Part shown: piece after piece, positions 2,060 through 63,784 of the stretch
How the letters are laid out: every line of letters begins with the position of its first letter
How positions within the stretch are numbered: position 1 is the first letter of the stretch
From: Arthrobacter sp. APC 3897
GTDB lineage: Bacteria; Actinomycetota; Actinomycetes; Actinomycetales; Micrococcaceae
DNA: 64,000 bases
Direction of reading: 5' to 3'
NCBI RefSeq assembly: GCF_030407495.1
Contig: NZ_JASDDG010000016.1
Location: 1 to 64,000, forward strand
Notes under the pieces: generated by a model
Database searches by the model: none
The model's input: the letters and a program-made list of their open reading frames with translations, nothing else
Told to the model about the DNA's origin: nothing
Position numbers and translations under genes: made by a program

Positions 2060-5000
2060 ATGAAAAGACCATTCTGGAAGGCTGCGCTGGGAACCACCCT
2101 GACAGCCGGCCTGCTGGCAGCACCAATCACGGCGCTTCCGGCCTTTGCACAAGACAGCCGTGCAGCTGTTGCCCCCGGCATCATCATCAATGAGGCCTAC
2201 CTGAGCGGCGGCAGCGCCAACGCGCCGTTCGTCAACAAGTTCGTGGAGCTGTACAACCCCACTTCCGCCGACGTCAGCCTTGACGGCTGGTCCCTCCAGT
2301 ACCGGGCAGCGGGTTCGACGGCGGCTCCCACCGGCATCGGTGCACTCTCCGGCACCATCCCCGCCGGCGGTTACTATCTGGTGTCCGGCGCCTCCAACGG
2401 AGCCGCCGGAGCACCCCTGCCCGAAGCCGATGCGACCATCGGCGCCAGCTTCTCCGGGTCGGGCGGCACCCTCATCCTGTCCAGCCAGTCCACCCGCGTG
2501 GATCCGCTGCCCACCGGTTCAGTCACCGCCGCCGCCGGCGTCGTTGACCTGCTGGGCTACGGCACCTCGAACACCTTCGAAACCTTGGCCGCCGCCGCGC
2601 CGGCAGGCAACAGCGATCCCAAGTCCCTGAACCGGACCGGGTTCGCCGACACGAACAACAACGCGGCAGACTTCGTGCTCAACGCGGCCGTGACCCCCAC
2701 CGGAACGGGCGGAACGGCTCCCACTGAGCCGACCCCCACACCCACACCGACGCCGTCACCCACTGCGCCCGTCGAGCCCCCTGCCGGCGCCGTGCCCATC
2801 GCCGAGATCCAGGGCTCCGGCGACACCAGCCCTCTGGTGGGACAGAACGTCACCACCCGCGGGATAGTCACCGGTGTCTATCCCACCGGCGGCTTCAACG
2901 GCTACTACATCCAGACCCCCGGCACAGGCGGCACGCTGGATCCGGCCGCCCACACCGCTTCGGACGGCATCTTCGTGTTTTCCGCAGACACCGTCGGCTC
3001 CGTCGCAGCAGGCGACTATGTTGAAGTCACCGGCGCCGTGGGCGAATACTTTGGCCTCACCCAGCTCACCGTTGCCGCCGGCCAGATGACCAAGCTCGAG
3101 GAGGCGGCCGAAGAGGTCAAGCCCGCCGCTGTTGCCTGGCCCGCCTCCGATACGCAGCGCGAAGCCCTCGAGGGGATGCTGCTGGCACCGCAGGGCAGCT
3201 ACACCGTCACCGACAATTACTCCCTGAACCAGTACGCGGAGATTGGGCTGGCTGCCGGCGATTCGCCCCTGGTCCAGCCCACCGCTGTGGCTCCCGTGGG
3301 CACCCCCGAGCACGCCGCCGTCGTCGCCGACAATGCGGCCCGTGCCGTGAAGCTCGACGACGGCACCAGCATCAACTTTCTGGGCGCCGCCAACCAGGGC
3401 ATCCCGCTGCCCTACCTGACCCTGGACAATCCGGTGCGCATCGGGGCAGCCGCCACCTTCACCACCGGCGTCATCCTGGACTACCGCAACAGTGCCTGGA
3501 AGTTCCAGCCGCTGACCGCGCTCACCGCTGAGAACGCCGCGGAGGCCGCCCCGGCGTCGTTCGAAGCCACGCGCACCGCCGCTCCGGAAAGCGTGGGAGG
3601 CAACCTCAAGCTCGCCTCCTTCAACGTGCTGAACTACTTCAGCACCACGGGCACGGACCTCACCGGCTGCACCTACTACAACGACCGTTCCGGCGCGCCG
3701 CTGACCGTGCGCGGCGGCTGCGATGCCCGCGGCGCCGCAAACCCGGAGAACCTGGAACGCCAGCAGGCAAAAATCGTGTCCGCCATCAACGCCCTCGGCG
3801 CCGACGTCGTGTCCCTGATGGAGGTGGAGAACTCCGCCGTGTTCGGCAAGGACCGTGACGATGCACTGGCCAACCTGACCGCTGCCCTGAACGAGGCCGC
3901 GCCGGGCACCTGGGACTATGTCCGCTCCCCCGCGGCACTGCCGGACGATGAAGACGTCATCCGCACCGCCTTCATCTTCCGCACGGCCGCTGCAGAACCG
4001 GTGGGTGAATCCGCCATTCTGAACGATGAAACCGTGTTCTCCAACGCCCGTGAACCACTGGCGCAGGCCTTCAAGCCCGCCGGCGGGGAAGACAACTCCA
4101 CCATCCTGGCGGTCAGCAACCACTTCAAGTCCAAGGGATCTGCTCCGTCAACCGGCGAAAACTCCGACACCGGACAGGGCGGCTGGAACGCTGACCGAGT
4201 GCGGCAGGCCCGGGCGCTGGCAGCCTTCGCTGACGCTGAAGCGGAAGCCGCCGGCACGGAAAAGGTCTTCCTGCTGGGTGATTTCAATTCATACGCCGCC
4301 GAGGACCCGATGACCGTTCTGGCCGAGGCCGGCTACGTCAACCTGGGCAAGGCCACCGGCAAGCACTCCTATGCCTTCAGCGGACTGGTTGGTTCCCTGG
4401 ACCACATCCTGGCCTCTGAGGAAGCAGCGGAAGCCGTGACCGGTGCCGACATCTGGAACATCAACTCGGTGGAGTCCCTGGCGCTGGAATACAGCCGCTA
4501 CAACACCAATGTCACCAACTTCTACGCTCCGGATCCGTTCCGTTCCTCGGACCACGATCCCATCCTCGTCGGTTTGGACCTCACCCCGGCAGGGACCGAA
4601 ACCGAGAAACTGAACCTGCTGAACATCAACGACTTCCACGGCCGCATTGATGCCAATACCGTCAATTTCGCCGGAACCGTTGAACAGCTCAAGGCCGCCG
4701 CACCCGAGGGCAGCTCGCTGTTCCTCTCCGCCGGAGACAACATCGGCGCTTCGCTGTTCGCGTCCTCCGTGCAGCAGGACAAGCCCACCCTCGATGTGCT
4801 GAACGCCCTCGGACTGCGGGCCTCGGCCGTGGGAAACCACGAGTTTGACGCCGGATACGCCGATCTGACCGACCGGGTTGATCCGGCTGCGGACTTCCCG
4901 TACCTGGGCGCCAACGTCTACCTCAAGGGCACCGCAACCCCGGCTCTGGATGAGTACACCATCCTGGACGTCAACGGTGTCTCAGTGGCAGTGATCGGTG

Positions 5001-6562
5001 CGGTCACCGAAGAGACCTCCGCGTTGGTCACCCCGGGCGGCATTGCCGACCTGGAGTTCGGCGACCCTGTGGAAGCCGTCAACCGGGTCGCCGAACAGCT
5101 CCAGGCGTCCGGAGACGTCGACGTCATTATCGCCGAATACCACGAGGGCGCCGGCAGCGGCACCCCGGACGGTGCTTCCCTGGAAGAGGAACTGGCGGCC
5201 GGCGGTGCGTTTGCCGAGATCGTCAACGGCACCACACCGCTGGTGGACGCCATCTACACCGGACACACCCACAAGCAGTACGCCTGGGATGCACCCGTTC
5301 CCGGCGCCGGCGGCAAGACCCGTCCGGTGCTGCAGACCGGTTCCTACGGTGAGTTCATTGGCCAGATCACGCTGGACTACAACCCGGCCACGGATGAGGT
5401 GCTGTCCTACACGGCAACCAACGTTCCGCGGACCACCGCGAGCGCCGCGTCACTCGTGGCCACCTATCCCGCCGTGGCAGAGGTCAAGTCCATCGTGGAC
5501 GCAGCCCTGGCCTCCGCCGCGGAGATCGGCAACCAGCCGGTTGGCTCGGTCACCGCTGACATCACGACGGCGTTCAACGGCACCGCCCGCGATGACCGCA
5601 GCGCGGAATCCACGCTGGGCAACCTCGTGGCCGACTCCCTGCTGACCACGCTGTCCTCCGCGGAGCGCGGCGGTGCCGAAATCGGCGTCACCAACCCCGG
5701 CGGGCTGCGGGCCGAGCTGTACTACGGCGACGACGGCGTGATCACCTACGCTGAAGCCAACGCCGTGCTGCCGTTCGTCAACAACCTGTGGACCACCACG
5801 CTTACCGGTGCCCAGCTCAAAACAATGCTGGAACAGCAGTGGCAGCCCGAGGGAAGCTCACGTGCCTTCCTGGCACTTGGCCTGTCCGACAACATCACCT
5901 ACACCTATGATCCGGACCAGCCGCGCGGCTCCCGGATCCAGACCGTCACCATCAACGGTGCCGCCATGGATCCGACCCGCGCCTACCGGGTGGGCACTTT
6001 CAGCTTCCTGGCCCAGGGCGGCGACAACTTCAGCGTCTTCTCCGAAGGCACTGACACCCGCGACTCCGGACTCGTGGACCGTGATGCCTGGATCAGCTAC
6101 ATCGAGGCGAACAGCCCGCTGTCACCGGACTTTGCCCGCCAGGGCGTCATCACCAAGGGCGCCCCGGCAACTGCGAAGGCCGGAACCGCGGTGTCCTTCA
6201 CCGTATCCGGCCTGGATCTGACCTCGCTGGGCAGCCCCGCGAACACCGGACTGGCCGCCAGCTGGGTGAATGCAGCCGGCACCTCCACCACTCTGGGCAC
6301 CGCTTCCGTGGCGTCGGGCACGGCTACCGTGAACGTCACCCTTCCGGCGTCGGCTGCCGGCGCCGGAACCCTGGTACTCACCGCGGCTCCGTCCGGAACC
6401 ACTGTGACTGTTCCCGTCACAGTGGAGGCTGCGCCGACCGTTCCGCCGGCTCCGGTGTGCAAGGCTCCGGTTCCGCCCCAGTACTGGTGGGACGTCCGGG
6501 GCTGGCTCCGATACGCCATCGAATGGGCCAAGTATCTGGTCTGCCTGAGCCAGCGCGGCTAA
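2060..6562 (+). CDS. Secreted ExeM/NucH-type endonuclease fused to a 5'-nucleotidase
   Basis: 1500 residues. Residues 1-30 are a Sec signal peptide (KR, hydrophobic core, cleavage after AFA). Then come a lamin-tail domain (about 37-170), a Thr/Pro linker (TPTPTPTPSP), an OB-fold domain (about 245-345), and an endonuclease/exonuclease/phosphatase domain (about 510-840: LASFNVLNYF, GDFNSY, SSDHDP). A complete 5'-nucleotidase follows: metallophosphatase motifs NDFHGRID, GDNIG, GNHEFD and GHTHKQ (about 850-1070), then the nucleoside-binding C-terminal domain (NPGGLR, about 1150-1350). An Ig-like domain and a short Trp-rich tail with two cysteines end the protein. The likely role is outside the cell: cutting DNA and removing phosphate from the nucleotides to scavenge phosphate and nucleosides. 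The start has an AAGGAGCAAG-like ribosome site. There is no LPXTG anchor. Confidence 0.92.
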   Translation: MKRPFWKAALGTTLTAGLLAAPITALPAFAQDSRAAVAPGIIINEAYLSGGSANAPFVNKFVELYNPTSADVSLDGWSLQYRAAGSTAAPTGIGALSGTIPAGGYYLVSGASNGAAGAPLPEADATIGASFSGSGGTLILSSQSTRVDPLPTGSVTAAAGVVDLLGYGTSNTFETLAAAAPAGNSDPKSLNRTGFADTNNNAADFVLNAAVTPTGTGGTAPTEPTPTPTPTPSPTAPVEPPAGAVPIAEIQGSGDTSPLVGQNVTTRGIVTGVYPTGGFNGYYIQTPGTGGTLDPAAHTASDGIFVFSADTVGSVAAGDYVEVTGAVGEYFGLTQLTVAAGQMTKLEEAAEEVKPAAVAWPASDTQREALEGMLLAPQGSYTVTDNYSLNQYAEIGLAAGDSPLVQPTAVAPVGTPEHAAVVADNAARAVKLDDGTSINFLGAANQGIPLPYLTLDNPVRIGAAATFTTGVILDYRNSAWKFQPLTALTAENAAEAAPASFEATRTAAPESVGGNLKLASFNVLNYFSTTGTDLTGCTYYNDRSGAPLTVRGGCDARGAANPENLERQQAKIVSAINALGADVVSLMEVENSAVFGKDRDDALANLTAALNEAAPGTWDYVRSPAALPDDEDVIRTAFIFRTAAAEPVGESAILNDETVFSNAREPLAQAFKPAGGEDNSTILAVSNHFKSKGSAPSTGENSDTGQGGWNADRVRQARALAAFADAEAEAAGTEKVFLLGDFNSYAAEDPMTVLAEAGYVNLGKATGKHSYAFSGLVGSLDHILASEEAAEAVTGADIWNINSVESLALEYSRYNTNVTNFYAPDPFRSSDHDPILVGLDLTPAGTETEKLNLLNINDFHGRIDANTVNFAGTVEQLKAAAPEGSSLFLSAGDNIGASLFASSVQQDKPTLDVLNALGLRASAVGNHEFDAGYADLTDRVDPAADFPYLGANVYLKGTATPALDEYTILDVNGVSVAVIGAVTEETSALVTPGGIADLEFGDPVEAVNRVAEQLQASGDVDVIIAEYHEGAGSGTPDGASLEEELAAGGAFAEIVNGTTPLVDAIYTGHTHKQYAWDAPVPGAGGKTRPVLQTGSYGEFIGQITLDYNPATDEVLSYTATNVPRTTASAASLVATYPAVAEVKSIVDAALASAAEIGNQPVGSVTADITTAFNGTARDDRSAESTLGNLVADSLLTTLSSAERGGAEIGVTNPGGLRAELYYGDDGVITYAEANAVLPFVNNLWTTTLTGAQLKTMLEQQWQPEGSSRAFLALGLSDNITYTYDPDQPRGSRIQTVTINGAAMDPTRAYRVGTFSFLAQGGDNFSVFSEGTDTRDSGLVDRDAWISYIEANSPLSPDFARQGVITKGAPATAKAGTAVSFTVSGLDLTSLGSPANTGLAASWVNAAGTSTTLGTASVASGTATVNVTLPASAAGAGTLVLTAAPSGTTVTVPVTVEAAPTVPPAPVCKAPVPPQYWWDVRGWLRYAIEWAKYLVCLSQRG

Positions 6563-9703: not shown

Positions 9704-11197
9704 ATGACAACGCAGGTTCAGTCACAGACTCCGGCCCGCACGGACTGGATTCCTTCGAAGCAGTACATTGCCGGTCAATGGCGCGACGGCGGTTCGGAAA
9801 AGACCCTCTCCGACAAGAGTCCCTTTGACGGCACCGAGCTGATGAGCATCCGCCAGGCATCCCGGGAAGACCTGAACGAGGCCTACACCGCAGCGGCCAA
9901 AGCCCAGCTGGAGTGGGCGGCGCAGACGCCGGCCGCCCGACGCGCCGTCATGGAACGCGCAGCAGAGATCTTCGACGAGCGCCGCGACGAAATCATCGCC
10001 TGGCTCGCCGCCGAATCCGGCAGCACCGTCATCAAGGCCAACATCGAAGTGGACTCCGCGCGGTCCATCACCAAGGAATCGGCCACCTTCCCGCACCGTG
10101 TATCCGGCAAGATCCTGCAGTCCGATGTTCCCGGCAAGGAATCCCGTGTGTACCGCGGCCCGCTCGGCGTCGTCGGCGTCATCAGCCCCTGGAATTTCCC
10201 CCTCCACCTGTCCCAGCGCTCCGTGGCGCCCGCGCTGGCACTGGGCAACGCCGTCGTCCTCAAGCCCGCGTCGGATACCCCGGTGACCGGCGGACTGATG
10301 ATCGCCCGCATCTTCGAAGAAGCCGGGCTTCCCGCCGGCGTCCTCAGCGTCGTCGTCGGCGCCGGGTCCGAAATCGGTGACGCCTTTGTGGAGCACCCGG
10401 TCCCCTCGTTCATCTCCTTCACCGGATCCACCCCGGTGGGCAAGAATCTTGGCGCCCTGGCCGCCTCCGGACCCACGCTCAAGCATGTCGCCCTGGAGCT
10501 CGGCGGCAACAGCCCGTTTGTGGTCCTCGCCGACGCGGACGTGGACCAGGCGGTCAAGGCCGCCGTCATGGGCAAGTTCCTGCACCAGGGACAGATCTGC
10601 ATGGCGGTGAACCGGATCATTGTCGAGGACGCCGTTTATGACGAATTCGTGGAGAAGTTCGCCGCGCACGCCAAGACGCTGAAGTCCGGCGACCCCACGG
10701 ACCCGCAGAATACTGTGGGGCCGATCATCAACGCCAAGCAGCTCGAAGGCCTGCAGAAGAAGATTGAGCTGGCCAAGGAGCAGGGCGCACGGCTTGTTGT
10801 TGAGGGTGAAACCAACGGACAGGTCCTCTCCCCTTACGTCTTCGCGGACGTTACCCGGGACATGGAACTGTTCCAGGAGGAAATCTTCGGTCCGATCGCA
10901 GGCATCATCCGCGCGGCCGACGCCGAAGATGCCCTGGCGCTGGCCAACGCCAGTGACCTCGGGCTGGCAAGCTCGGTCTTCACCTCGGATCTGGACCGCG
11001 GCGTCCTGTTCGCCCGCCGCATCAAGGCCGGTATGACCCACGTCAATGACATTCCGGTCCAGGATGAAGCCCATGTTGCCTTCGGCGGCGAGAAGAACTC
11101 CGGTCTGGGCCGTTTCAACGGCGAATGGGCCATCGAGGAATTCACCACCGACCACACGGTGACCCTGCAGCGCGAGCCGCGGCAGTACCCGTTCTGA
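9704..11197 (+). CDS. NAD(P)-dependent aldehyde dehydrogenase, benzaldehyde/vanillin dehydrogenase-like
   Basis: 497 residues from the ATG at 9704, which follows AAGGAGAAACAC; an upstream in-frame ATG has no such site. It oxidises an aldehyde to its acid. Catalytic C299 sits in GQICMA and general-base E265 in LELGGNSP; the fold signature [10 protein letters not shown] is present. The sequence style ([23 protein letters not shown]) is closest to benzaldehyde and vanillin dehydrogenases, so an aromatic aldehyde is likely, but this is a family-level guess. It is divergent from ctaD and monocistronic, with a terminator 35 bases after the stop. Confidence 0.93.
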
Positions 11198-11231
11198 TCG
11201 GTGCCGCTTCCCCGCGGAGCTGAAAGCTGAA

Positions 11232-11275
11232 AGGATGCCGTCCCGGATGAATGCCGGGGCGGCATCCTGCTTTTG
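11232..11275 (+). terminator. Intrinsic terminator after aldehyde dehydrogenase
   Basis: 15-bp stem with one mismatch (AGGATGCCGTCCCGG against CCGGGGCGGCATCCT), loop ATGAATG, followed by GCTTTT. Confidence 0.8.
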
Positions 11276-11316
11276 CCCGGCGCCAAGTACAAGACAAGTA
11301 CAGGAAAGGGATTCCC

Positions 11317-12237
11317 ATGCAGACCAGGCGGCAGTGGACAGTGGAGAACGACGGCGCCCGGCTGGCCGTTTTCGAGTACGGCCTGCCGGCGGCACCGGCG
11401 ACTCCCACAGTGCTGCTGGTCCACGGCTACCCGGATGACCATACGGTGTTCGGCAGCGTCATCGAGGACCTGGCCACGGACCACCGGGTCCTCGCCTACG
11501 ACACGCGCAATGCCGGTGCATCGCGGGTGGACGCTGTGCCGGCCGGGGGAAATCCTCTCCAGCCGTACCGCCTGCCGCTGCTCGTCAACGACCTCTACGC
11601 CGTGCTGGCATCGGCCAACACCGGTGGCCCGGTGCATCTGGTGGGCCATGGCTGGGGGTCCATCCAGTGCTGGGCCGCAGTCCGCGATGACCGCGCCGGC
11701 GGCAGGATCCGCAGCTTCACGAGCATTTCCGGACCCGACATCGGACACCTGCGGCGTTGGTTCGCCGCGTCCCTGCGGTCCCCGCGCCGCTGGCTGCTCG
11801 CTGCCGGCCAGGCCATGCGCAGCACGTATGTGGCGTTCTTCCAGCTGCCCGCCCTGCCGGAGCTTCTCTGGCCGCTGCTGGGACCGCGCTATGCACAGCG
11901 CGCCGGAACCAGTGCACGGACCGCCTCGGACAACGGGGTCCGCGGCCTGCAGCTGTACCGCGCCAACCTGCTCGGCTCAGGCGTGAGCGCAGCAACCGGG
12001 CAGCCGCCCCTGGAGGTACCCGTTCACGTGGTTGTCCCGCTGCACGATCCCTTCCTCTCGCCGCGGCTGACGGACGGGCTGCGTGAGGAGGTAAAGGATC
12101 TGCGGATCAGCGCCGTCGACGGGGGACACTGGTGGCCCGTCGAAAACAGCGGGGCGTTTTGCCGGCTGCTGCGGCAAAACGCTCCGGCCCCGGACAGCGC
12201 AGACGGGGCTGGCCAAACGGACCAAAGCGGCCGATAA
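11317..12237 (+). CDS. Alpha/beta-hydrolase of the epoxide hydrolase (EphD-like) type with nucleophile replaced by Gly
   Basis: 306 residues from the ATG at 11317 (AGGAAAGGG upstream). It has the oxyanion-hole motif HGYPDD and a final histidine, H271, in GGHWWP. The nucleophile elbow reads VGHGWGS: the position held by Asp in epoxide hydrolases and dehalogenases (GHDWGS) or by Ser in esterases is Gly112 (codon GGC at 11650). The closest family style is the hydrolase half of actinobacterial EphD-like proteins. As read, the protein should lack classic hydrolase chemistry; it may bind a ligand, work by another mechanism, or be decaying. It overlaps nothing and ends 16 bases before a convergent transporter gene. 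Confidence 0.85.
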   Translation: MQTRRQWTVENDGARLAVFEYGLPAAPATPTVLLVHGYPDDHTVFGSVIEDLATDHRVLAYDTRNAGASRVDAVPAGGNPLQPYRLPLLVNDLYAVLASANTGGPVHLVGHGWGSIQCWAAVRDDRAGGRIRSFTSISGPDIGHLRRWFAASLRSPRRWLLAAGQAMRSTYVAFFQLPALPELLWPLLGPRYAQRAGTSARTASDNGVRGLQLYRANLLGSGVSAATGQPPLEVPVHVVVPLHDPFLSPRLTDGLREEVKDLRISAVDGGHWWPVENSGAFCRLLRQNAPAPDSADGAGQTDQSGR

Positions 12238-54455: not shown

Positions 54456-55097
54456 ATGATCTCCACGAAATTAATGCCCAAAACTCATTTCGGCCGCAGT
54501 TCATCAGGCATCGCATTGGCCATGGCCGCCGTGTTCATCGTTTCGGGCTGCGGCGGTAATACTGAACCGCAGGCTGAAGCTGTCCCGACAGCAGAGGAAA
54601 CGTTCACGCCGCAGGCGCAGTGGCCAGAGGGGGACGAAAAGGGGACGCTCGCCAACCCGTACAGCATCGGCGAGGAAATGGTCGACGGCGACTGGTCCCT
54701 CACCATTGATGACATCAATCTGGATGCCAATGCTGAGATGGCAGCCAAGGACAGCATTATCTCCAAGGTTGATCCGGAACCGGGCAATACCTGGGTGATT
54801 CTCACGGCGACGTGGACATACAACGGTGACGAGCCGGCGGAGGGTGGCACAAGCTTCGCTGTGGTTAATGAGAACTGGAATGACGCCTTTGACACCGAAA
54901 ATAGGTACGGCACCACCTTTAATGACGTTTCGACGCTGAAACCCGACGAGTCAGAGGCAGGTCCTGCGGAGCCCGGCTCATCAGTGACCGGCGAGGCTAT
55001 CCTGCAGATGCCGGTGGAATATGCGAACGATTCAAGCATGATCGTCGCCAAGTTCAATTATGACGGCCTCGACGAGCACCTCGTCAAAATCGATTAA
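54456..55097 (+). CDS. Lipoprotein with DUF4352-like domain
   Basis: 213 residues. An N-terminal signal ends with lipobox VSGC (Cys at about residue 33), so the protein is a membrane-anchored lipoprotein exposed outside. The mature part (PYSIGEEMVDGDWSLTIDDI; NTWVILTATWTYNGDEPAEG) looks like the immunoglobulin-like DUF4352 fold with the usual pattern of a hydrophobic strand, a TWVIL core and a C-terminal barrel strand. Start at 54456; an in-frame ATG at 54474 is possible. Function unknown. Confidence 0.82.
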   Translation: MISTKLMPKTHFGRSSSGIALAMAAVFIVSGCGGNTEPQAEAVPTAEETFTPQAQWPEGDEKGTLANPYSIGEEMVDGDWSLTIDDINLDANAEMAAKDSIISKVDPEPGNTWVILTATWTYNGDEPAEGGTSFAVVNENWNDAFDTENRYGTTFNDVSTLKPDESEAGPAEPGSSVTGEAILQMPVEYANDSSMIVAKFNYDGLDEHLVKID

Positions 55098-55663
55098 TTC
55101 TTCCGGTTCACTGGAAAACGGCCGCATGCAGTACGGCGCGGGCCGTCACCCATGAGCCGATGACTCCGCGGGGATCGTCTGCGCCGCGATCCCCGCGCCG
55201 GGCTACGGCTGCCGGCCGGTCTGCCCCTCCCATGCAGGACCATAGGGGGGCCATGAGGCCAAAACGGACCTCAGCCGACTGCTCGGAACGATCAACCTCG
55301 GCATCATCCCTAGAAATTCATGCACCCCACGGTGAGTCCGCACCTGCCACCATGAAGCCGCACCACGACCACTGGCTGATCCGTCCGCTCCAGTCACAGT
55401 GCACTCGACCGATGCTCGTTGACTGTCGTTGTAACCAAAAACCCAACCGTCCTTCCGCTGTTACGTGACGATTTCGCCTGGGCAAAGAGCGCGGGGTGGG
55501 ACAGGAAATTCGCATGCCTGCATAATCCGCTTCCGTCTGGTCAAGCGGTTTCACGGTTCCTGCTGTTGTCACGCCAAGGAGCACCAGCGTTCATGCCAGC
55601 CATCGGTGCCCGGCATCTGCATCATTTATACCTCGATCGTCTGCCAAGAAACGCCCGTTCAAA
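55098..55663. other. Intergenic stretch without a supported gene
   Basis: About 570 bases between the lipoprotein gene and the last gene of the minus-strand RHS locus. Only short open frames on both strands, none with a ribosome site and a recognisable domain. It holds a hairpin near 55168-55196. It may be the worn end of the toxin locus. Confidence 0.5.
55168..55196. terminator. GC-rich hairpin, possible terminator
   Basis: Perfect 10-bp stem GCGGGGATCG / CGATCCCCGC with a 9-base loop, 71 bases after the lipoprotein stop. No T run. Confidence 0.4.
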
Positions 55664-56068
55664 CTAACCGGAAAAAGCTCCCGCATCATTAAGCATTGAC
55701 TGAACAAGAAAGCATTGACCGAAGAGGAAAAAGAGAAGCATGGGTACACCGATGCAGTAGATGATCATTCGCCCACCCTTATCCATGTAATCTATATCGG
55801 GTTTGGGATTCAGCAGAGGCCGCACCGTAAAGAAAACAGCCAAGGGCATTATTGCTACTACTAAGGGCATGGGAAGGCCGCTTCGACCAAGCCTTCCGCT
55901 ATAAGCAAGTCTTGTGTCAAGGGGAAGAACAATAAACGCAAAAACCGCGATGGCCAGGCACAGGATCAACACCCAAATACCCAGCAGCTTGGCGATTTTG
56001 TTCGCTCGGCCGCCAAGCTCAATGTCACGCTCCGTATACTTCGGGGAAGTACTTGTGTCGTCACTCAT
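55664..56068 (-). CDS. Small membrane protein, last gene of RHS locus
   Basis: 134 residues from the ATG at 56068 (GAGGCACC upstream; a GTG just before is possible). Three membrane segments: LLGIWVLILCLAIAVFAFIV (one), PLVVAIMPLAVFFTV, and IIYCIGVPMLLFFLFGQCFL. The N-terminus is charged (DDTSTSPKYTERDIELGG). The start overlaps the stop of a tiny upstream frame (TGATG). No known family. Its place in a chain of membrane genes after a toxin-like gene suggests an immunity or accessory role, which is inference. Confidence 0.7.
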   Translation of the reverse strand: MSDDTSTSPKYTERDIELGGRANKIAKLLGIWVLILCLAIAVFAFIVLPLDTRLAYSGRLGRSGLPMPLVVAIMPLAVFFTVRPLLNPKPDIDYMDKGGRMIIYCIGVPMLLFFLFGQCFLVQSMLNDAGAFSG

Positions 56069-56163
56069 CACGTGGTGCCTCTATGGGCAGACCCTCCCTG
56101 CGTTTCATCGACGGTAGGCAGCGCCTCAAAAGCTAAAAGCTGAGTATCAGTAGCTGTCATCAT
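56068..56163 (-). CDS. Tiny coupling reading frame (31 codons)
   Basis: ATG-ATG at 56163/56160 overlaps the TGA of the 79-residue gene upstream, and its own TGA (56068-56070) overlaps the ATG of the 134-residue gene downstream. The predicted peptide starts MMTATDTQLLAFEALPTV. The double stop/start overlap suggests it is translated, at least to carry ribosomes to the next gene. It could also be chance; no relatives recognised. Confidence 0.35.
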   Translation of the reverse strand: MMTATDTQLLAFEALPTVDETQGGSAHRGTT

Positions 56164-56399
56164 CCCACGTCCATTAAGGTTTCAGCCCCGTTCCTCGCCA
56201 AACACCTCTGGAGCTTTTCGCCAGAACGCTGGCAACCAACAGCGATCGAGATACTGACCAGAAGCACCAGTACGGCCAGGACAACGAGCATTATCCGCGG
56301 CCATGCGAACGGCGCGAGGTTTCGGAGCCAGGCGGTTTCCTTCAAGGTCTGGTAGTGAACAAAGATCAGGCACCGGGACGGGCCGTGCATTTTGGTCAT
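56160..56399 (-). CDS. Small single-span membrane protein of RHS locus
   Basis: 79 residues from the ATG at 56399, with AGAGGAATAGAG as ribosome site. One membrane segment (RIMLVVLAVLVLLVSISIAV) flanked by a basic N-terminal part and a cytoplasmic or outer tail with three Cys (GCQRSGEKLQRCLARNG). No known family. It lies 16 bases after the stop of the broken immunity-like gene and is probably in the same transcript. Confidence 0.6.
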   Translation of the reverse strand: MTKMHGPSRCLIFVHYQTLKETAWLRNLAPFAWPRIMLVVLAVLVLLVSISIAVGCQRSGEKLQRCLARNGAETLMDVG

Positions 56400-56414
56400 T
56401 CTCTATTCCTCTAG

Positions 56415-57111
56415 TTAGGGACAAGCGCGTGGCTTCTGCTTCTGCACCTGTGACCCATTCCGGCCCCAGCTTCGCAGCCCCCGGTTCCTGAGGAAGTCGC
56501 CCAAAGCTGCTGCCGCGGAGTCGAAGTCATTCACCAGCCTCGACGGCATGTAGCCCACGATCTTTCCCATGGGGACCTCCACCGTCTCATCCGGCAGGTG
56601 CCCTCGACGCGTCAGAACCGCCCATGGGCGCTCATCGGCAGCAGCGTTACTGCGGTGGCACACAATCCCTGACTCGGAGCACCCGACCACCTCCAGCAAC
56701 AGTGCTGAAGCCACGCCCGTCGACCTGCCACACCGCTTTCTTGACGGGCGCCGTCTTGCGGCGCTGCGCCGCAGTCCGCCAGGCGACGCCGATGTTCGAT
56801 CCGCCGACAAGCGCACCCATCCACGCCACGCCCGCCGGCCCGAATGCCTCCACCTCGGCCAGCAGGGCGACACACACCACCAGGGCCGCAATTAAGCACA
56901 CCAGGGTCACCCAGGCATGGCGCGCTCCGAGGCGGAACAGCCAGACTCCCAGGACTGTCCCGGCCGCAAAGGCCACCAGGGCGAGCCAGGTGACGTCTTG
57001 CCGCCCAAGGAACACCATGGCGATGGTGCCGCAGAGAATGGCGCTGCCCAGTACAAGGTAAGCCAGCCCTGATTCCTGACTGGCCTTGGATCGCTTAGTT
57101 GTGCTGTTCAT
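56415..57111 (-). pseudogene. Broken paralogue of the 57360-58139 gene (internal deletion and frameshift)
   Basis: The ATG at 57111 (AACAGGATTG upstream) opens a frame with four membrane segments ending KKAVWQVDGRG, which runs out of phase to a stop at 56647. From about 56705 the sense continues in another frame to TAA at 56415: LLLEVVGCSESGIVCHRSN, then DFDSAAAALGDFLRNRG. In the intact neighbour (57360-58139) the same blocks read DVWLVNG, then EAVGNAATGFIVHC and DLETASTALRGFFHHRG, with about 30 more residues between them. So this copy has lost about 90 bases and the reading frame. Sequencing error cannot account for the missing block but could for the shift. Confidence 0.72.
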
Positions 57112-57238
57112 CAATCCTGTTCATATTTACCAGCCCAATCGTCCCTAGACCCAGCACTGCCAATCCAAGCATCGTCCCCCAAAAGATCCATCGATCTTTG
57201 CGCAATTGCTGCGGGGACCTCGGTGAAAGATCTAGCAT
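57095..57238 (-). CDS. 47-residue single-span membrane peptide
   Basis: A short frame from ATG at 57238 to TAA at 57095. The peptide has a polar start (MLDLSPRSPQQLRKDR), one membrane segment (WIFWGTMLGLAVLGLGTIGL) and a polar end (RIDEQHN). AGAAGAAGAAAT precedes the start. It overlaps the start of the next gene by 17 bases, as in coupled operons. No known family. It fits the pattern of small membrane proteins in this locus. Confidence 0.55.
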   Translation of the reverse strand: MLDLSPRSPQQLRKDRWIFWGTMLGLAVLGLGTIGLVNMNRIDEQHN

Positions 57239-57359
57239 ATTTCTTCTTCTGCCTGGCGGGATATCAATTCACCTCGCGAGTGATCCAGTGTCGCATCCCT
57301 TCATGCATGACAGGTCTAATCAGTTGAATGGCAATGCATCACAGACCCAAGCGGGAGCT

Positions 57360-58139
57360 CTAACCGAACCGAAAGTCCAGCACGTCGGTGCCGGAAACCC
57401 AGGGCAGACCTGGGTCCGGGCCTCTATGATGAAAAAAGCCGCGCAATGCCGTACTGGCGGTTTCTAAATCGACAACAAACCTCCTTGGCGCATAGGCAGG
57501 ACCGGAAGGAAGCCTGATTTCAGTCTCGTCTTTCCCCGCCGTCGCCCCCAGGACCCTCCACTGGCTGTTATCCCGGAAACTAGATGTGCAGTGCACAATA
57601 AACCCCGTGGCAGCGTTACCAACCGCCTCGAAAAGGGCCTCGTTGCGCTGGACATAGAAACGACCCGTACCTGCACTGTCCCACGACGCCAGCGCGTTCA
57701 ATCCGTCGGCCCGCGCGCTCTCGGTCCGTGAGTTCTCGGAGCCGTTGACCAGCCAGACATCAGCCGGAGTGGGCTTGCTGATCAGGATGCCTTGTCTGAT
57801 GACGCTGCCCACCATCACACCAATGGCATTGGCTGGTATCAATACCGCCCATAGCCCGGACCATGGAGAGGGAAGCAACTGGGCAAGAACAGCGCATTCC
57901 GCTATGACAACAATGAATAAAATGACCGTTACCAGGTTCTCCCGAACCAGCGCCCTTATCAGGCTACCGCCGAGAAGACCGGAGAAGATCAGAACCATGG
58001 ACTCCGGCCCATAGGTGCCGTTAGTACTGAGAAAAACAGTAATAAACAGGGTGACTGAGAAGAATAATGCAATTCCCAGCGGAATACCTGCGTGCTTCAC
58101 AAAGCTCCGAAGATGCGACGGACTTTGTCTTGTATTCAT
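57360..58139 (-). CDS. Probable immunity protein: four-span membrane protein with cytoplasmic domain
   Basis: 259 residues from the ATG at 58139, 2 bases after the TAG of the RHS gene; GGTGAG upstream overlaps the RHS stop region, so translation is coupled. Four membrane segments lie in residues about 18-125 (IALFFSVTLFITVFL; MVLIFSGLLGGSLI; VTVILFIVVIAECAVLAQLL; GLWAVLIPANAIGVMVGSVI). Residues about 130-259 form a soluble domain (NEALFEAVGNAATGFIVHC; SQWRVLGATAG; RRFVVDLETASTALRGFF). No known family. In polymorphic-toxin loci the gene directly after the toxin encodes its immunity protein; this position and the broken paralogue nearby support that role. A membrane-located immunity protein would fit a membrane-acting toxin. 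Confidence 0.75.
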   Translation of the reverse strand: MNTRQSPSHLRSFVKHAGIPLGIALFFSVTLFITVFLSTNGTYGPESMVLIFSGLLGGSLIRALVRENLVTVILFIVVIAECAVLAQLLPSPWSGLWAVLIPANAIGVMVGSVIRQGILISKPTPADVWLVNGSENSRTESARADGLNALASWDSAGTGRFYVQRNEALFEAVGNAATGFIVHCTSSFRDNSQWRVLGATAGKDETEIRLPSGPAYAPRRFVVDLETASTALRGFFHHRGPDPGLPWVSGTDVLDFRFG

Positions 58140-58141
58140 AT

Positions 58142-61100
58142 CTACTCACCCGTAATCAAGAACTTCGCGGATTCAATCCCGGCCAGGGTCCCTGCTCCTA
58201 TGCCTCCGGAGCGCAGCAGAGCCTGTTTATTAACCCCGTTTTCAAGAAGGCCGGCGACCGTACTTGTATTCGTCCGTGCCGCTTGGGACAGCGTACTAGA
58301 GGGAGAAGGGCCGCCGGGGAGATAGGTCAGCCCCCCGCCAGTAATGGCCGCCCAGGTGAGATCCCCCGCACGTATCTCGTCCCCCGCGATGGTCTTGTCG
58401 GCCAATGTACCGGCTACGCCGCCGCCGCTCCCGAGAGCTGTCATTCGCCACAGCGTGTGTGACGTTCGACTTGCAGTGCCGTTGGCTAGCGCATACACCG
58501 AGTGTCCTCCGGCTTTGGCGAGGGTCCCGCCTGCAGGACCGGCAAGTCCTCCGACGGCGCCGCTGACTCCACCCCCGACCATGGCCCCGGCGAGCCCTCG
58601 CCAGCTGTCAACCCCTCCGTTCTTGACCGTGTAGATAGCCCCGCCGCCGACAGCACCTGCGGCTCCGTTCACTCCTGCGTTGATCGCTGCGTAGCCGCCA
58701 AGCCGCGACAACGACGACGACGTTGCCATAGCCGCACGTGACGCCGCGATGCCTGCACCGCCCAGAGCACCAGTCACGCCCACTGCAGCCGATTGCGCCC
58801 AATTGACCTCGCCGGTGGTGGCCTTCTGGATGACGACGTCGGCGCCAAAGCTCATCAATCCCAAACCGGCAACCTGGCCGCCGGGTACAAACATCAGCGC
58901 CAAGCCGGCCGCTACTGCCACGCCGCCGACGATATATGAGTGCTCGTTCATCCAGTCACCTACTGCCGTAAACGCTCCCCGGTTGGAACCGTCGTAGGCC
59001 TTCAGCTCCTCATCCGTCAACGGACTCAGTCCCGTCGGGTCCGAAGTGTTCAACGGGTTGTTGCCCGCGTAGGAGTACGGGTTCCCGTCCCAGCCAGCGC
59101 CGAGGACCGGGGCCAGCGGGTCCGTGGACAGGAAGCCGCGCGTAGCGGGGTCGTAGCCACGGGCGCCTAGCCATTCCAGCCCCGCGATATCCAGGCCACC
59201 GTCGCCGGTCAGACCGATGCCAGCGGGCAATCCACCGGCCATTCCGGGCGCTGTCCCGATGCCGGGCATGGCGCCTCCGGACATAGTTCCCGGTTCGGGG
59301 ATGACCGAAGCGCCCAGCACCGCCCACGGATCAGTTTCATCCGTAGGACGGGCAGCACGCCACCCCGGCGCGACCCAAGCCTCGCCGATCCCGGTCACAC
59401 CGCCGGGCAGGTTCAACACCTGCTCCTCGCTGATACCGGCCAGCGTCGGCACCGCGCTGGCACTGTCCCACCACACCGGGCAGCCATCCACGGACGCCAG
59501 CTCACCCAGAGCATCCACCCACAACGTATGCCGCGCCGTTTCCGCCCCGTCCGGGGTGCGGTCCACAGCCCCCTGCAGATACCCCGTCTCGCCCCAGGCG
59601 TATTCAGTCCAGGACCCGTCCGCGCCGATCAGCCGCGACCGGCGGCCCAACCCGTCGTAGACGTACTCCGTCCGGGAGCCGTCCGGATCCGCAACCGAGA
59701 GCAGCTGCCCGGCCGCGTCATAGGCATAGCTGCGGGGTCCAGCCGGGGTGTGTTCGCGGACCAGGCGTCCGCCGGCGTCGTACTCCCATTCCGGGACCTG
59801 CGCGCGGGCGTTAGCTGCAGCGCCGGTTTCCCGCATCGGCGTGGTGGCTGCGGCAACCAGCTGTCCGGCACCGTCGTAGCCGTACCGGCTCACCGTGCCT
59901 GCCCGGGTCAGGCCGGTGATCCGGCCGTCCTCATCCCGGCCGATCAGGGTGATATCCGCAGCGCTGTCAGAATCCGCTCCGTTGGTGCGGGTGTGCTCGG
60001 ACAGGTACCCGTTCCGGTATACCCATTCCTGCGCCAGGTCCCCGGCAGTGACAGCGGTCAGGCGGCCTGAGGGGTCATGCGTGAACTGCGCTTCTCCAAG
60101 GCGGGGCTTGTGCACGGTCTTGACCCGCCCGGCAGCGTCCCGTTTATAAGTGGTGGTGGTCCCGGTGGTGTCAGTGAAGGACGTACGGTTCCCGTCCGCG
60201 TCATACTCCCATGACAGGCCCTCGCCTCCGCGGATGCGGGAGGTCAGCTGGCCCCGGCGGTTGAACCCGAGTTCGTGCTCGACCGTCAGCTCGTCAACAC
60301 CGGTGTGATCACTAATGACCACGCGGCGGTTCATAGCGTCGCGGTCCACGGAGGCCAGCAGCTTTCCGTTATGGGAGGTGCTCTCCTCCCGTCCGGCCGC
60401 GTCATAGGTCCAGGTGGTGGTGTTGCCGTCCGGGTCCGTCTGGGACAGCTGGCGCCCCGCCGGATCATAGGTCGCCGTAGTGACCCGGCCCAACGGATCG
60501 CTGACCGAATCCACCTGATCCGTCTCGGTATACGTGCGGGTCGTAACCCCGCCCAGCGGGTCGGTGATCCGGATAAGCCGGCCGCGGACGTCGTACTCGA
60601 ACCGGGTCCGGCCACCGACGCCGTTGACGGTCTCGGTCAGTTCCCCGGCCACGTTGTACTTGAACCGGCGGGTGCCGTACCAGGAGTCCTGGGAGAAGCT
60701 CAGCCGGCCGACCTTGTCATACCCGTACCTGGCGTTGCCGTTCCCGGCGGTGACCCGCAGGATGAGCCGCCCGGCAGCGTCGTATTCGAAGGTTTCGGTT
60801 TCCCCGGTGGGAAGGATCCGTGCGGTCACGCGCTGATCAGCGTCATATACCAGTTCCGTCACCGCACCCAGCGGATCAACCGTTTTCCACGGACGTCCGC
60901 AGACATCGTATTCGTACCGGGTCACCGCACCGGACGGGGAGGTCACCGAGATGATCTTCCCGGCAACATCGCGTTCCAAGCGGGTCAGGCCGCCGTCGCC
61001 GTCGAGTAGTTCCACCGGGTTCCCGGCTGCGTCATAGGTGGTCAGCTCTGCGGACCCGTCCGCAGTTTCGGAACGGACCGGCCGGCCGTATTCATCGAAC

Positions 61101-63784
61101 GTGTAGGTGGCGGAGGAGAACGCATCTGCCACGGTGGCGGTGCCGGCCCGGCGGTCCGTAGCGACCTCCGACCTCACGCCGGTCGGGTCTACGACGGCGG
61201 TGAGGTTCCCGATCTTGTCGTACTCACGAATCCAGTCGTGCCCGGCCGGGTCCGTGATCCCGGTCAGCCGAGACAGGGTGTCGTGGGTGAAGCCCCAGCG
61301 GGCGCCGTCGGGCAGGATCGCTGCGGTGACGTTGCCGAGTTCGTCAAAGACCCGCTCAATACTCCGGCCCAGCGGGTCGATGGTGCGGACCAGCTCGCCG
61401 TTGGCAGCGTATTCCAGTGCGGTCCGGCCGCCGTCCGGTGCAACCGATGCGGTGATCCGCCCGGCGTCGTCGTATTCGAAGGACCAAACGGCGCCATCGG
61501 GGTCCTCACGCCGGGCCAACAGCCCGGCAGCGTTATAGGTGAAGCGGGTTTCCGCGCCGGATGGAGTGATGCCGGCTGCGGGGCGGCCGGCCTCGTCGCG
61601 GAGAATCCTTGCCGTGTCCCCGACAGCGTTTCGGGTTGCAACCAGGTCACCATATTGGTCGTAGTCGAACTCCACGCTTACGCCGGCCGGATCGGTGACG
61701 CGGGTGAGAAGCCCGTCCCGCCATTCCAGTTCAGTGCGCCCGCCCAGCGGATCCATGATCACCGAGGGATCACGGGAAAGCTCATCCGCGTACTCATAGG
61801 TGACAACGGACCCGGATTCCGTGACCAGGGTGGTGATGCGGTCCTGCTCGTCCCATCCATAGGTCAGATCTGCGCCTTCGGGCGTGACGGTGCGGATGCG
61901 GCGGCCCCGCTCGTCATAGGCATGGACGGTGACGGCGCCGTCGCGTTCGGTGAAGGAGACGAGGTTTCCGTGCCGATCATAGGCCATGGACTGGCGGTGG
62001 TCGTGCGAGTCCAGGACCCCGACCAGGCGGCCCTTGGTATCAGCGATCCAGGAGTTGGAGCGGGTGCCGTCCTCGTCCGAGACCGCCGTGACCCGGCCGG
62101 GCAGGTACGCAAAGCGGGTGCGGCGGCCGTGCTGGGTCACCTGCAGGATCACCCGGCCCTGCTCGTCATAGGTGTTTTCGGCTTCTAGAACTCCGGCCGC
62201 GGAGTACACGGCGTCAATCAGCCCGGCGTCGTTCCACCGGTACGTGCGTGTCCCGGTTTCGGTGGTGACGCTGACGAGCCGGCCGGCGTCGTCGTATCCG
62301 TATTCGGCTCTGCGCCCGTCCGACGCCCTCACCACGGCGGCAAGACCGTTCACGTAATCGATGTCCAGGAACCGGCCGCGCACATGCGACAGCCGGGACA
62401 CCAGGCCAGGGCGGCCGGCATCGTCGGCCTCACCGTTTTCCGCCGGGACCTCGCGGTGCACGGACACAGTCCGGCCCGGCCCGGACCCGGCACCCAGCCA
62501 CACCCCGGCCAGGGTGTAGGCCCACCAGGAGCCCCGGTTGTCGCGGACCACCAGCAAATCCGTGCTGCCCTCACTGACGGCGGACAGCTCTGCGAAGATG
62601 GCCCCGGCGGCCGGTTCGCGGGTCAGCCAATAGTTCTCCCCGATTCCACGGGCCCAACCCTCGCCTTCCCGGGGGAAGCCCACTGCGCGTCCGTCGGCCA
62701 TGGTCCAGGTACAACCGTCATCCGAGAGCTCCAGATGCTGATCCAGGACAGATGCCCAGCCCGGGCCAAACGCCCCGACAACTTCCTGCGGCGCCAAGGA
62801 GTTGTACATCCTCGACAACACCAGGTTCGAGGCAGCGCCGGTAAACCCCAGATCCCTTTCGGGTTCAATGAAGTTGCCCGTGGCCGTGTTCACCGGGTCA
62901 TCGGCGTATCCGGTGGTCGGGACCGCGCCATAAGCCGTAGGCGGATCAATGACCAGCGCGCCCCGCGTAGCGTCTACACCCGCGGCGGCTAAAGCAGCTG
63001 CCAGGGCCGCGTCTGACAGGGTTGAGACGTTCCCTTCGCCTCCTGCTGCCGCGAATGCGTCAGCGAGAGTGGTGGCCCATACCGCGTCGGCTTCATTGGC
63101 ATCCCGGTATTGCTTGAGGGCCATGAGCACCCCGCCGGCTTCGATGGTGCCCCAGTAGCAATTGTCCGTGAAGTCAGTGAGCTGGTTCCTCAGGCGCCCC
63201 ACCATCCCGTCCAGCTCATCATCCAAAGCCCGGGAGTCGGCCGCGAACTGCCGCAGGTTGGCCGGCCGCGCCGATGACGTTCCTCCGCCGTAGCCTCCGC
63301 CGCTGCCCGGCTGTGGAGTGGTGCGTGGCGCGACCGTTGCTGTCTGCTCGAAGTTCGGTCCCGGCACCGGGTCCATATTCGTGCGTTCCTTGACCCCGGT
63401 GATCCAGTCGGTGAACTTTTCCCACCCGTTGCGGTCTAGGTAATCCCTGACCCACGCGTTGTTTTCCCGTCGCCGGTTGTCCTCTTCCCGTCCCGCCTCG
63501 CTCATTTTCCTGACGTACTCGCCCACTTGGCGGAGCGCTTCAGCGAGCCGCTTGGCGTCGTTGGCCGCAGTATCGGCGTTCTCCTGGAAAATGTCCGAGA
63601 AACGTCCTTTGAAGTCTTCCTTTGCCTGCTGCACATAGGCGGAACGCGAGCCGGACTTTTGCTCAATGGAATCAGCCGCGGTTTCGAACATACGCTTCAC
63701 GGTGGCCGCAACGCCATAGTCGTAGCGGCCGCCGTATTTGCGGTCCGATTCCGGCAACAACGGCATTTCGACAAAATCAGTCAT
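58142..63784 (-). CDS. RHS/YD-repeat polymorphic toxin with WXG100-like N-terminus
   Basis: 1880 residues from the ATG at 63784. Order: an alpha-helical N-terminal region of WXG100-like type (about 20-110; FKGRFSDIFQENADTAANDA), Gly-rich linker (GSGGGYGGG, about 163), a second helical region, then the DUF6531 signature DPVNTATGNF (about 298-307). About two dozen YD repeats (YDRHGNLVSF, YDEQGRVILQ and so on) fill about 480-1510 and should form the RHS shell. The RHS closing motif (RGYDPATRGFLSTDPLAP; NPLNTSDPTGL) ends at residue 1586. The last 294 residues are hydrophobic and rich in Gly/Ala (GGVAVAAGLALMFVPGGQVA; GYAAINAGVNGAAGAVGGG), with no recognisable nuclease, deaminase or ART fold. No Sec signal, so export by a type VII (Esx) system is likely. 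Confidence 0.9.
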   Translation of the reverse strand: MTDFVEMPLLPESDRKYGGRYDYGVAATVKRMFETAADSIEQKSGSRSAYVQQAKEDFKGRFSDIFQENADTAANDAKRLAEALRQVGEYVRKMSEAGREEDNRRRENNAWVRDYLDRNGWEKFTDWITGVKERTNMDPVPGPNFEQTATVAPRTTPQPGSGGGYGGGTSSARPANLRQFAADSRALDDELDGMVGRLRNQLTDFTDNCYWGTIEAGGVLMALKQYRDANEADAVWATTLADAFAAAGGEGNVSTLSDAALAAALAAAGVDATRGALVIDPPTAYGAVPTTGYADDPVNTATGNFIEPERDLGFTGAASNLVLSRMYNSLAPQEVVGAFGPGWASVLDQHLELSDDGCTWTMADGRAVGFPREGEGWARGIGENYWLTREPAAGAIFAELSAVSEGSTDLLVVRDNRGSWWAYTLAGVWLGAGSGPGRTVSVHREVPAENGEADDAGRPGLVSRLSHVRGRFLDIDYVNGLAAVVRASDGRRAEYGYDDAGRLVSVTTETGTRTYRWNDAGLIDAVYSAAGVLEAENTYDEQGRVILQVTQHGRRTRFAYLPGRVTAVSDEDGTRSNSWIADTKGRLVGVLDSHDHRQSMAYDRHGNLVSFTERDGAVTVHAYDERGRRIRTVTPEGADLTYGWDEQDRITTLVTESGSVVTYEYADELSRDPSVIMDPLGGRTELEWRDGLLTRVTDPAGVSVEFDYDQYGDLVATRNAVGDTARILRDEAGRPAAGITPSGAETRFTYNAAGLLARREDPDGAVWSFEYDDAGRITASVAPDGGRTALEYAANGELVRTIDPLGRSIERVFDELGNVTAAILPDGARWGFTHDTLSRLTGITDPAGHDWIREYDKIGNLTAVVDPTGVRSEVATDRRAGTATVADAFSSATYTFDEYGRPVRSETADGSAELTTYDAAGNPVELLDGDGGLTRLERDVAGKIISVTSPSGAVTRYEYDVCGRPWKTVDPLGAVTELVYDADQRVTARILPTGETETFEYDAAGRLILRVTAGNGNARYGYDKVGRLSFSQDSWYGTRRFKYNVAGELTETVNGVGGRTRFEYDVRGRLIRITDPLGGVTTRTYTETDQVDSVSDPLGRVTTATYDPAGRQLSQTDPDGNTTTWTYDAAGREESTSHNGKLLASVDRDAMNRRVVISDHTGVDELTVEHELGFNRRGQLTSRIRGGEGLSWEYDADGNRTSFTDTTGTTTTYKRDAAGRVKTVHKPRLGEAQFTHDPSGRLTAVTAGDLAQEWVYRNGYLSEHTRTNGADSDSAADITLIGRDEDGRITGLTRAGTVSRYGYDGAGQLVAAATTPMRETGAAANARAQVPEWEYDAGGRLVREHTPAGPRSYAYDAAGQLLSVADPDGSRTEYVYDGLGRRSRLIGADGSWTEYAWGETGYLQGAVDRTPDGAETARHTLWVDALGELASVDGCPVWWDSASAVPTLAGISEEQVLNLPGGVTGIGEAWVAPGWRAARPTDETDPWAVLGASVIPEPGTMSGGAMPGIGTAPGMAGGLPAGIGLTGDGGLDIAGLEWLGARGYDPATRGFLSTDPLAPVLGAGWDGNPYSYAGNNPLNTSDPTGLSPLTDEELKAYDGSNRGAFTAVGDWMNEHSYIVGGVAVAAGLALMFVPGGQVAGLGLMSFGADVVIQKATTGEVNWAQSAAVGVTGALGGAGIAASRAAMATSSSLSRLGGYAAINAGVNGAAGAVGGGAIYTVKNGGVDSWRGLAGAMVGGGVSGAVGGLAGPAGGTLAKAGGHSVYALANGTASRTSHTLWRMTALGSGGGVAGTLADKTIAGDEIRAGDLTWAAITGGGLTYLPGGPSPSSTLSQAARTNTSTVAGLLENGVNKQALLRSGGIGAGTLAGIESAKFLITGE

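Follow-up and report, generated by a model that had tools for sequence, protein, structure and literature searches.

The window, as we call the whole stretch of 64,000 nucleotides analysed here (Arthrobacter sp. APC 3897, contig NZ_JASDDG010000016.1, positions 1 to 64,000), carries on its minus strand, from 63784 to about 55338, a gene for an RHS protein of 1880 amino acids (aa), followed by an array of small membrane-protein genes and gene remnants. Comparison with related loci suggests that the RHS protein is a polymorphic toxin of a Type VII secretion system (T7SS)-like apparatus, whose C-terminal tip, of a group here termed T1, would be membrane-active and would be neutralised by the product of the next gene, a member of immunity family I. 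We place the probability of this reading at about 0.7. It rests above all on the observation that the sequence group of the tip predicts the family of the gene immediately downstream, both within the genus and in other genera of the same bacterial family. In the ORF (open reading frame) calls the toxin gene and all the reported membrane-protein frames lie on a single strand, as originally noted, and the locus comprises the following features:

58142..63784, minus strand: RHS polymorphic toxin, 1880 aa, with Pfam and Rhs-associated core matches
58145..59026, minus strand: residues 1587-1880 of the toxin (its C-terminal tail), in tip group T1, with many small residues and little charge
57360..58139, minus strand: family I gene, 259 aa, probable cognate immunity gene, with four predicted spans and a C-terminal soluble domain
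57095..57238, minus strand: family IV remnant, 47 aa, N-terminus and span only
56415..57114, minus strand: broken family II gene, two ORFs of 155 and 158 aa in different frames, aligning in order with the intact copy behind the T2 toxin in locus L015
56160..56399, minus strand: 79-aa ORF, a family I remnant
56068-56163, minus strand: tiny frame of 30-31 aa
55664..56068, minus strand: intact family III gene, 134 aa, three spans, an orphan here
about 55338-55445, minus strand: second family IV remnant, beyond the span first reported

The assignment of the 1880-residue protein to the DUF6531/RHS class is borne out by Pfam (RHS repeats, 2.7e-120; DUF6531, 3.2e-21; both above their cut-offs), and the Rhs_assc_core match extends to about residue 1586, beyond which there is a tail of about 294 aa in which no enzyme domain is recognised. 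The N-terminus is helical and scores 18 bits against WXG100, below the cut-off of 27.3; such a sub-threshold match was seen in one of the five toxin N-termini checked, so that a WXG100/LXG-type domain is at most a candidate. The toxin is present in 10 of the 29 genomes of the genus at E<=1e-3 and is full-length in 8 of the 29, with 16 full-length genes including that of the window. The toxins of the genus combine a conserved core with an exchangeable C-terminal tip and a matching next gene, which is the organisation that defines polymorphic RHS toxins, and by its sequence the window locus probably encodes one of these, with a predicted toxic C-terminal tip. Tails were read from toxin loci and their downstream DNA; 19 of the 22 were counted, L057_3749, L060_4916 and L062_14146 being frameshifted or cut before the tip. 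Six are charged and soluble-looking (class A), while the other 13 resemble the tail in the window (class B). A blastp comparison of the last 130 aa splits the class-B tails into four groups, namely T1 (window and L016), T2 (L015 and L018), T3 (L055, L056, L062_16954 and L060_15128) and T4 (L017, L057, L058, L059 and L061), with T1 distantly similar to T3 (best E 3e-9). Labels such as "GIY-YIG-like" or "restriction-like" were given to class-A tips by eye, and Pfam named two of the nine tested.

In all 13 class-B toxins of the genus the first downstream gene follows the tip, T1 being succeeded by family I, T2 by family II, T3 by family III and T4 by family IV. With exchangeable labels such a result has one chance in 540,540, or one in 166,320 if one near-identical orthologue is set aside, figures which the relatedness of the toxins makes optimistic. 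The first gene behind class-A toxins lacks predicted spans in 6/6 cases; five of these toxins, at loci L051-L054, have no family I-IV match, and the nearest such match to the sixth, L062_6682, is 3.3 kb away. Shared ancestry of the toxin core does not explain the pairing. For 3 of 11 toxins the closest RHS core is that of a toxin with the same immunity family, and for 10 of the 11 the closest tip is, with L055 as the exception (the test covers 11 of the 13 class-B toxins, without L056, which is near-identical to L055, and L062_16954, whose core is incomplete). Mean core identity is 0.766 both within immunity families and between them, and two toxins of one genome, L018 and L057, have cores that are 92% identical and differ in both tip and immunity family. 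Since it is similarity of the tip, and not of the core, that predicts the immunity family, tip and immunity gene, on the evidence of these sequences, move together as a cassette. The original prediction, that of an immunity array made up of membrane proteins, is thereby supported.

The same pairing is seen beyond the genus, where loci of other genera in the bacterial family were scanned with tip models trained on the genus set only (leaving out the toxin-core matches G303, G192:C5 and the start of G261:C8). Fifteen distinct genes match a tip model, and the gene of the matching family comes first in 12 of them and one of a wrong family in none. These comprise T1 with family I in L128 and L154 (weak, 28 and 39 bits), T2 with family II in L129 and L130/L158, T3 with family III in L135, L136a, L141 and L164, and T4 with family IV in L134, L136b, L166 and L170b, the pairings of L164 and L170b depending on 27-bit matches to the family. 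The count could be flattered by three of the twelve, namely L128 and L135, at loci selected on account of their immunity genes and absent from the toxin-core list, and L136b, a tip in a toxin gene broken upstream of the tip; dropping them leaves 9 of 12. Two side observations concern the same loci. At L163:2683-3121, beyond the first gene that follows the toxin, there is by eye an orphan ORF that resembles a tip and has no RHS core, a possible source for tip exchange. The small-genome genus g3 (L132, L140) has family IV-like genes in arrays close to RHS toxins and fragments of toxins.

Families I and II are built of three to four spans on a simple hydropathy scale (four in the window protein) followed by a soluble domain of about 140 aa. 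The 259-aa window protein carries positive charges ahead of span 1, in the stretch joining spans 2 and 3, and past span 4, a distribution which suggests that both its ends, and hence the soluble domain of family I, are cytoplasmic. Family III has three spans and a conserved loop that is probably outer, and family IV combines a single span with a probable outer domain, whose two cysteines are conserved in all ten full-length members. The membrane-protein families had gone unrecognised in the original prediction, and in the profile search Pfam offered nothing convincing for any of the four (the best E value being about 0.001; for families III and IV the matches are scattered, with best E of 0.0011 and 0.058). 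A search of PDB sequences with families I/II and IV found no relative, one I/II match at E 0.24 being taken as chance, and none of the four families was found described in the libraries and literature searched. The soluble domain of the 259-aa protein scores 17.5 bits against Imm1 (PF14430), below the cut-off of 22.4, and at E<=0.1 the match is confined to this one of ten family I/II members; Imm1 as the identity of the domain is accordingly unproven.

The array in the window thus holds intact genes of families I and III, a broken family II gene and remnants of families I and IV. Its four-span 259-aa protein starts 2 bases past the toxin stop, as had been reported, and is probably the cognate immunity protein of the window toxin, because family I also comes first behind L016, the other T1 toxin of the genus. 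What had been described as a chain of small membrane-protein genes is such a chain as regards this gene and the 134-residue three-span protein, an intact member of family III, and is otherwise in part a chain of remnants. The 47-residue single-span peptide is the truncated N-terminus of a family IV protein of about 150 aa and not a gene in its own right, and the 79-residue single-span protein likewise dissolves into a remnant of family I copies, which looks like the product of a deletion of about 0.4 kb across two tandem copies. The supposed broken paralogue proves to be one, belonging to family II, which is 22-25% identical to the 259-aa protein, and its break consists of a split over two frames. 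Families I-IV or their remnants therefore stand in tandem behind a polymorphic toxin, which is the arrangement of a polyimmunity locus, immunity itself being what we infer from it.

Part of this array appears to preserve a record of exchange. Positions 56236-57137 of the window are collinear with positions 10285-11696 of L015 (DNA 82-90% identical), from the sister species G008, in a stretch that opens about 10 bp before the end of a T2 toxin gene. By this collinearity, the broken copy of family II in the window corresponds to the gene immediately following the toxin in G008. In the window it is preceded by the T1 tip, the family I gene and a family IV remnant, and compared with G008 the family II copy lacks an internal stretch of roughly 90 bp. 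Both toxins are divergent from an EssC-like gene and occupy the same kind of site; any direction assigned to the cassette exchange between the two loci would be an interpretation of these sequences. By eye, similar genes for a secreted protein flank the array in two genera (window 54456-55097, lipoprotein-like; L128, about 11164-11535); they may mark the boundary of the array or be a part of the system. Far from the array, at 2060-6562, the window encodes a 1500-aa protein with lamin-tail, endonuclease/exonuclease/phosphatase, metallophosphatase and 5'-nucleotidase C-terminal domains.

The connection to secretion comes from an EssC/EccC-type ATPase gene (G000:C8:68619-73073), divergent from the window toxin and about 5 kb away. 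Its product of 1485 aa has FHA and FtsK domains and is best matched by the firmicute EssC model TIGR03928 at 482 bits, below the cut-off of 778, as against 379 bits for actinobacterial EccC, also below cut-off. Among 345 genomes of the bacterial family, the toxin core (E<=1e-20) is found in 35 and the ATPase (E<=1e-150) in 33, with both in 31, the toxin only in 4 and the ATPase only in 2 (p=2e-37). Within the genus, the ATPase accompanies the toxin in 8/8 genomes and is present in 0/21 of the others, the pair lying 4.8-5.1 kb apart in all eight. The idea that the toxin beside the ATPase is always of the membrane type holds in 8/8 cases in the genus and fails outside it, where G163, G077, G177 and G135 have, near their ATPase genes, tips of the soluble type with soluble first genes. 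The secretion locus (L063:2420-13121, equivalent to G000:C8:64419-75120) also encodes two proteins of 981 and 447 aa and a Ser/Thr kinase, and a second EccC, above cut-off, is encoded elsewhere in the same genome.

Taken together, these observations are consistent with the following sequence of events. The toxin would be exported by the EssC-like ATPase system, with which it co-occurs and is adjacent. Its RHS shell would enclose the tail and keep it harmless until delivery, as proposed from Rhs proteins such as Tse5, after which the tail would enter the cytoplasmic membrane of a competitor and, by analogy, depolarise it. The membrane protein paired with the tip in the genomes would block either insertion or pore assembly, so that the toxin, as the original prediction also proposed, might act on membranes and be neutralised there by a membrane protein. 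When tip and immunity gene are replaced together, older immunity genes would stay downstream as a polyimmunity array; the cassette and the remnants are observed, and the array would guard against rival tips until it decays.

The composition of the tails points in the same direction. Glycine, alanine and serine (G/A/S) make up 0.42 of the last 100 aa of the window toxin and charged residues including His 0.13. Across 62 toxins the G/A/S fraction of the last 100 aa is 0.35 in those whose first gene encodes a predicted span (n=43) and 0.23 in those whose first gene encodes none (n=19; p=5e-8), and both charge (p ~2e-5) and hydropathy (p ~1e-5) differ in the expected direction. This comparison began with 75 tails, nine of which were left out as short or without a downstream ORF, and the 66 were reduced to 62 by removal of near-identical ones; it takes the longest downstream ORF, which mis-picks in at least one case (L060, where family III is first by homology), and counts decayed genes such as L159 as they stand. 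Glycine-zipper counts also differ (2.30 with a membrane first gene against 0.74 with a soluble one, p=5e-5), a difference that composition explains, and the zipper, the motif of membrane-depolarising toxins of the TelE and EsxX kind, is rejected here. No Pfam or NCBIfam family matched the final 150 aa of the window tail and no NCBIfam family the class-B tips of L057 and L055, and a plasmid search gave no match to the tail or to the 259-aa protein.

Several results weigh against a membrane-active tip with a matched membrane protein. A hydropathy scan of the 294-aa window tail found one strong span, within the part common to class-A, soluble-tip toxins; by the simple scale, the T1-specific part has none. 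On this account our confidence in a pore was lowered from 0.74 to 0.70. The division into classes A and B was at first made by eye, and the tails L162, L182, L185 and L159 go against the compositional trend. Zipper counts lie within composition-matched shuffles (p<0.05 not reached) in 12 of the 13 class-B tails, including that of the window, which is why no zipper is claimed; the single class-B tail with p<0.05 is joined by a class-A tail, L051 (p=0.017). AlphaFold models are poor both for the tail alone (mean pLDDT, the predicted local distance difference test, 39.9) and for the 259-aa protein modelled by AlphaFold2 with one homologue (37.8; this low-confidence model places helices at 8-38, 44-63, 69-88 and 94-121). 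The three misses outside the genus (L165/L140, L168 and L170a) are T2 toxins of one genus with no detectable family II gene. Their first genes encode proteins of 278 and 272 aa with N-terminal spans and a soluble remainder, and a pair of 107-aa and 126-aa ORFs, the former with four spans and overlapping the soluble latter (L170:1742-2439); these share the architecture of family II without detectable similarity.

The lack of a strong span in the T1-specific part would suit a tail that acts in the envelope without pores, on lipid-linked precursors or a membrane protein, with the immunity protein shielding the target or capturing the toxin outside. The probable extracytoplasmic domain of family IV, with its cysteine pair conserved in 10/10, fits such an action, as does the similar immunity protein of Listeria LrhA, for which an envelope target was inferred by its authors (PMC10327511; here and below, statements on published systems refer to the accessible portions of the reports cited). 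We nevertheless consider such an action without pores unlikely, given that the three class-B tips tested (window, L057 and L055) match no family, that the tail is rich in small residues and low in charge, and that the charges of the family I protein probably put its soluble domain in the cytoplasm. It is more improbable still that the tail serves delivery or translocation alone, in RHS proteins whose toxic tip has been lost, with the membrane proteins acting as secretion partners or anchors. Soluble-tip toxins do have the same first stretch past the RHS core, including the one strong span. The tails, however, run well past this common part and stop at the same place in relatives that are 60-72% identical (the window and L016 toxins have their last 129 aa in common, at 60% identity), they form four groups that change together with the next gene, whereas partner genes should track the core and not the tip, and the families occur as arrays and orphans.

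Orphan copies bear on whether the array belongs to the toxin at all. Of the 21 genomes of the genus that lack the toxin, 11 contain matches to families I-IV, fragments included. The single full-length relative that bears a name is in an Arthrobacter metagenome-assembled genome (L002, 57%), with no RHS frame within the 3.5-11 kb stretch inspected; L003, which matches the last 35-46 residues only, was not used. The original prediction had named homologues widely away from toxins as evidence against itself, and such homologues do in part exist. The toxin-less copies are tentatively read as orphan immunity genes by analogy with exiC/exiD (PMC12744356) and lrhI (PMC10327511), for which orphans are documented, copies away from toxins being what orphan immunity predicts. 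That the small membrane-protein genes have nothing to do with the toxin and form a chance cluster, as such copies taken by themselves might suggest, is highly improbable in view of the position-specific matches in 13/13 and 12/15 toxins, the same families standing in the same position behind toxins with matching tails in other species.

A membrane-active T1 tip neutralised by a family I protein accordingly remains our preferred reading. A wider proposal, that the tips radiated into at least four membrane-attacking types, each with its own undescribed immunity architecture, which would act from a different face of the membrane (spans with a cytoplasmic domain in families I/II, a conserved outer loop in III, an extracytoplasmic disulphide domain in IV), is tentative and, on balance, doubtful, a little more so after the hydropathy result. 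What the data provide is a set of four groups of tips, each matched by one of four families of membrane immunity proteins, on RHS carriers of Actinobacteria that are linked to an EssC-like system. Sister species carry different cassettes at a single locus, and the immunity gene that was displaced can still be recognised there, which amounts to a natural series suited to asking how a membrane immunity protein recognises a toxin, and from which face of the membrane. The locus, in a soil-type actinobacterium, resembles a fossil record of a bacterial arms race, with a toxin, its probable protector and the decaying protectors against rivals.

Systems of this kind are already known, as are polyimmunity loci, and it is these immunity families that were found described nowhere among the sources searched; among the titles and abstract openings listed, mostly of open-access literature, no report deals with RHS toxins of Actinobacteria whose tips act on membranes. 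In Listeria monocytogenes essC8, the LrhA-LrhI pair (PMC10327511) is similar in having a DUF6531/Rhs toxin beside an EssC gene, a next gene encoding 261 aa with an N-terminal span, and orphan copies. It differs in belonging to a Firmicute and in that LrhI, with its single span, has a globular part outside the cell, and alternative membrane tips with matched families were not found described in the portions consulted. Tse5-Tsi5 of Pseudomonas aeruginosa (PMC10684867, PMC12744356) combines an Rhs shell around a membrane-active C-terminal fragment with membrane-bound immunity, but in Type VI secretion, and the comparison is one of described features. EsxX-ExiABCD of Staphylococcus aureus (PMC12744356) is a membrane-depolarising T7SS toxin with orphan exiCD and with both membrane (ExiCD) and soluble (ExiAB) immunity. 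Its carrier is of the LXG type and its immunity modules are separate proteins, two jobs which families I/II would join in one chain. TspA-TsaI, also of S. aureus (PMC7456083, PMC9484751), is a membrane-depolarising T7SS toxin that is polymorphic and accompanied by strings of genes for membrane-bound immunity proteins; unlike the present system it is non-RHS and has a single immunity family. The ionophore toxins of contact-dependent inhibition (CDI; PMC11630599) share the many polymorphic membrane-acting tips and the specific, highly polymorphic immunity proteins, but have a CdiA carrier and are predicted to contain entry domains and five-helix bundles. TelE, in turn, is paired with a DUF5085 immunity protein. 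The membrane-acting T7SS toxins TspA, TelE and EsxX are from Firmicutes and non-RHS, and the loci described here would extend the same logic to RHS carriers of Actinobacteria.

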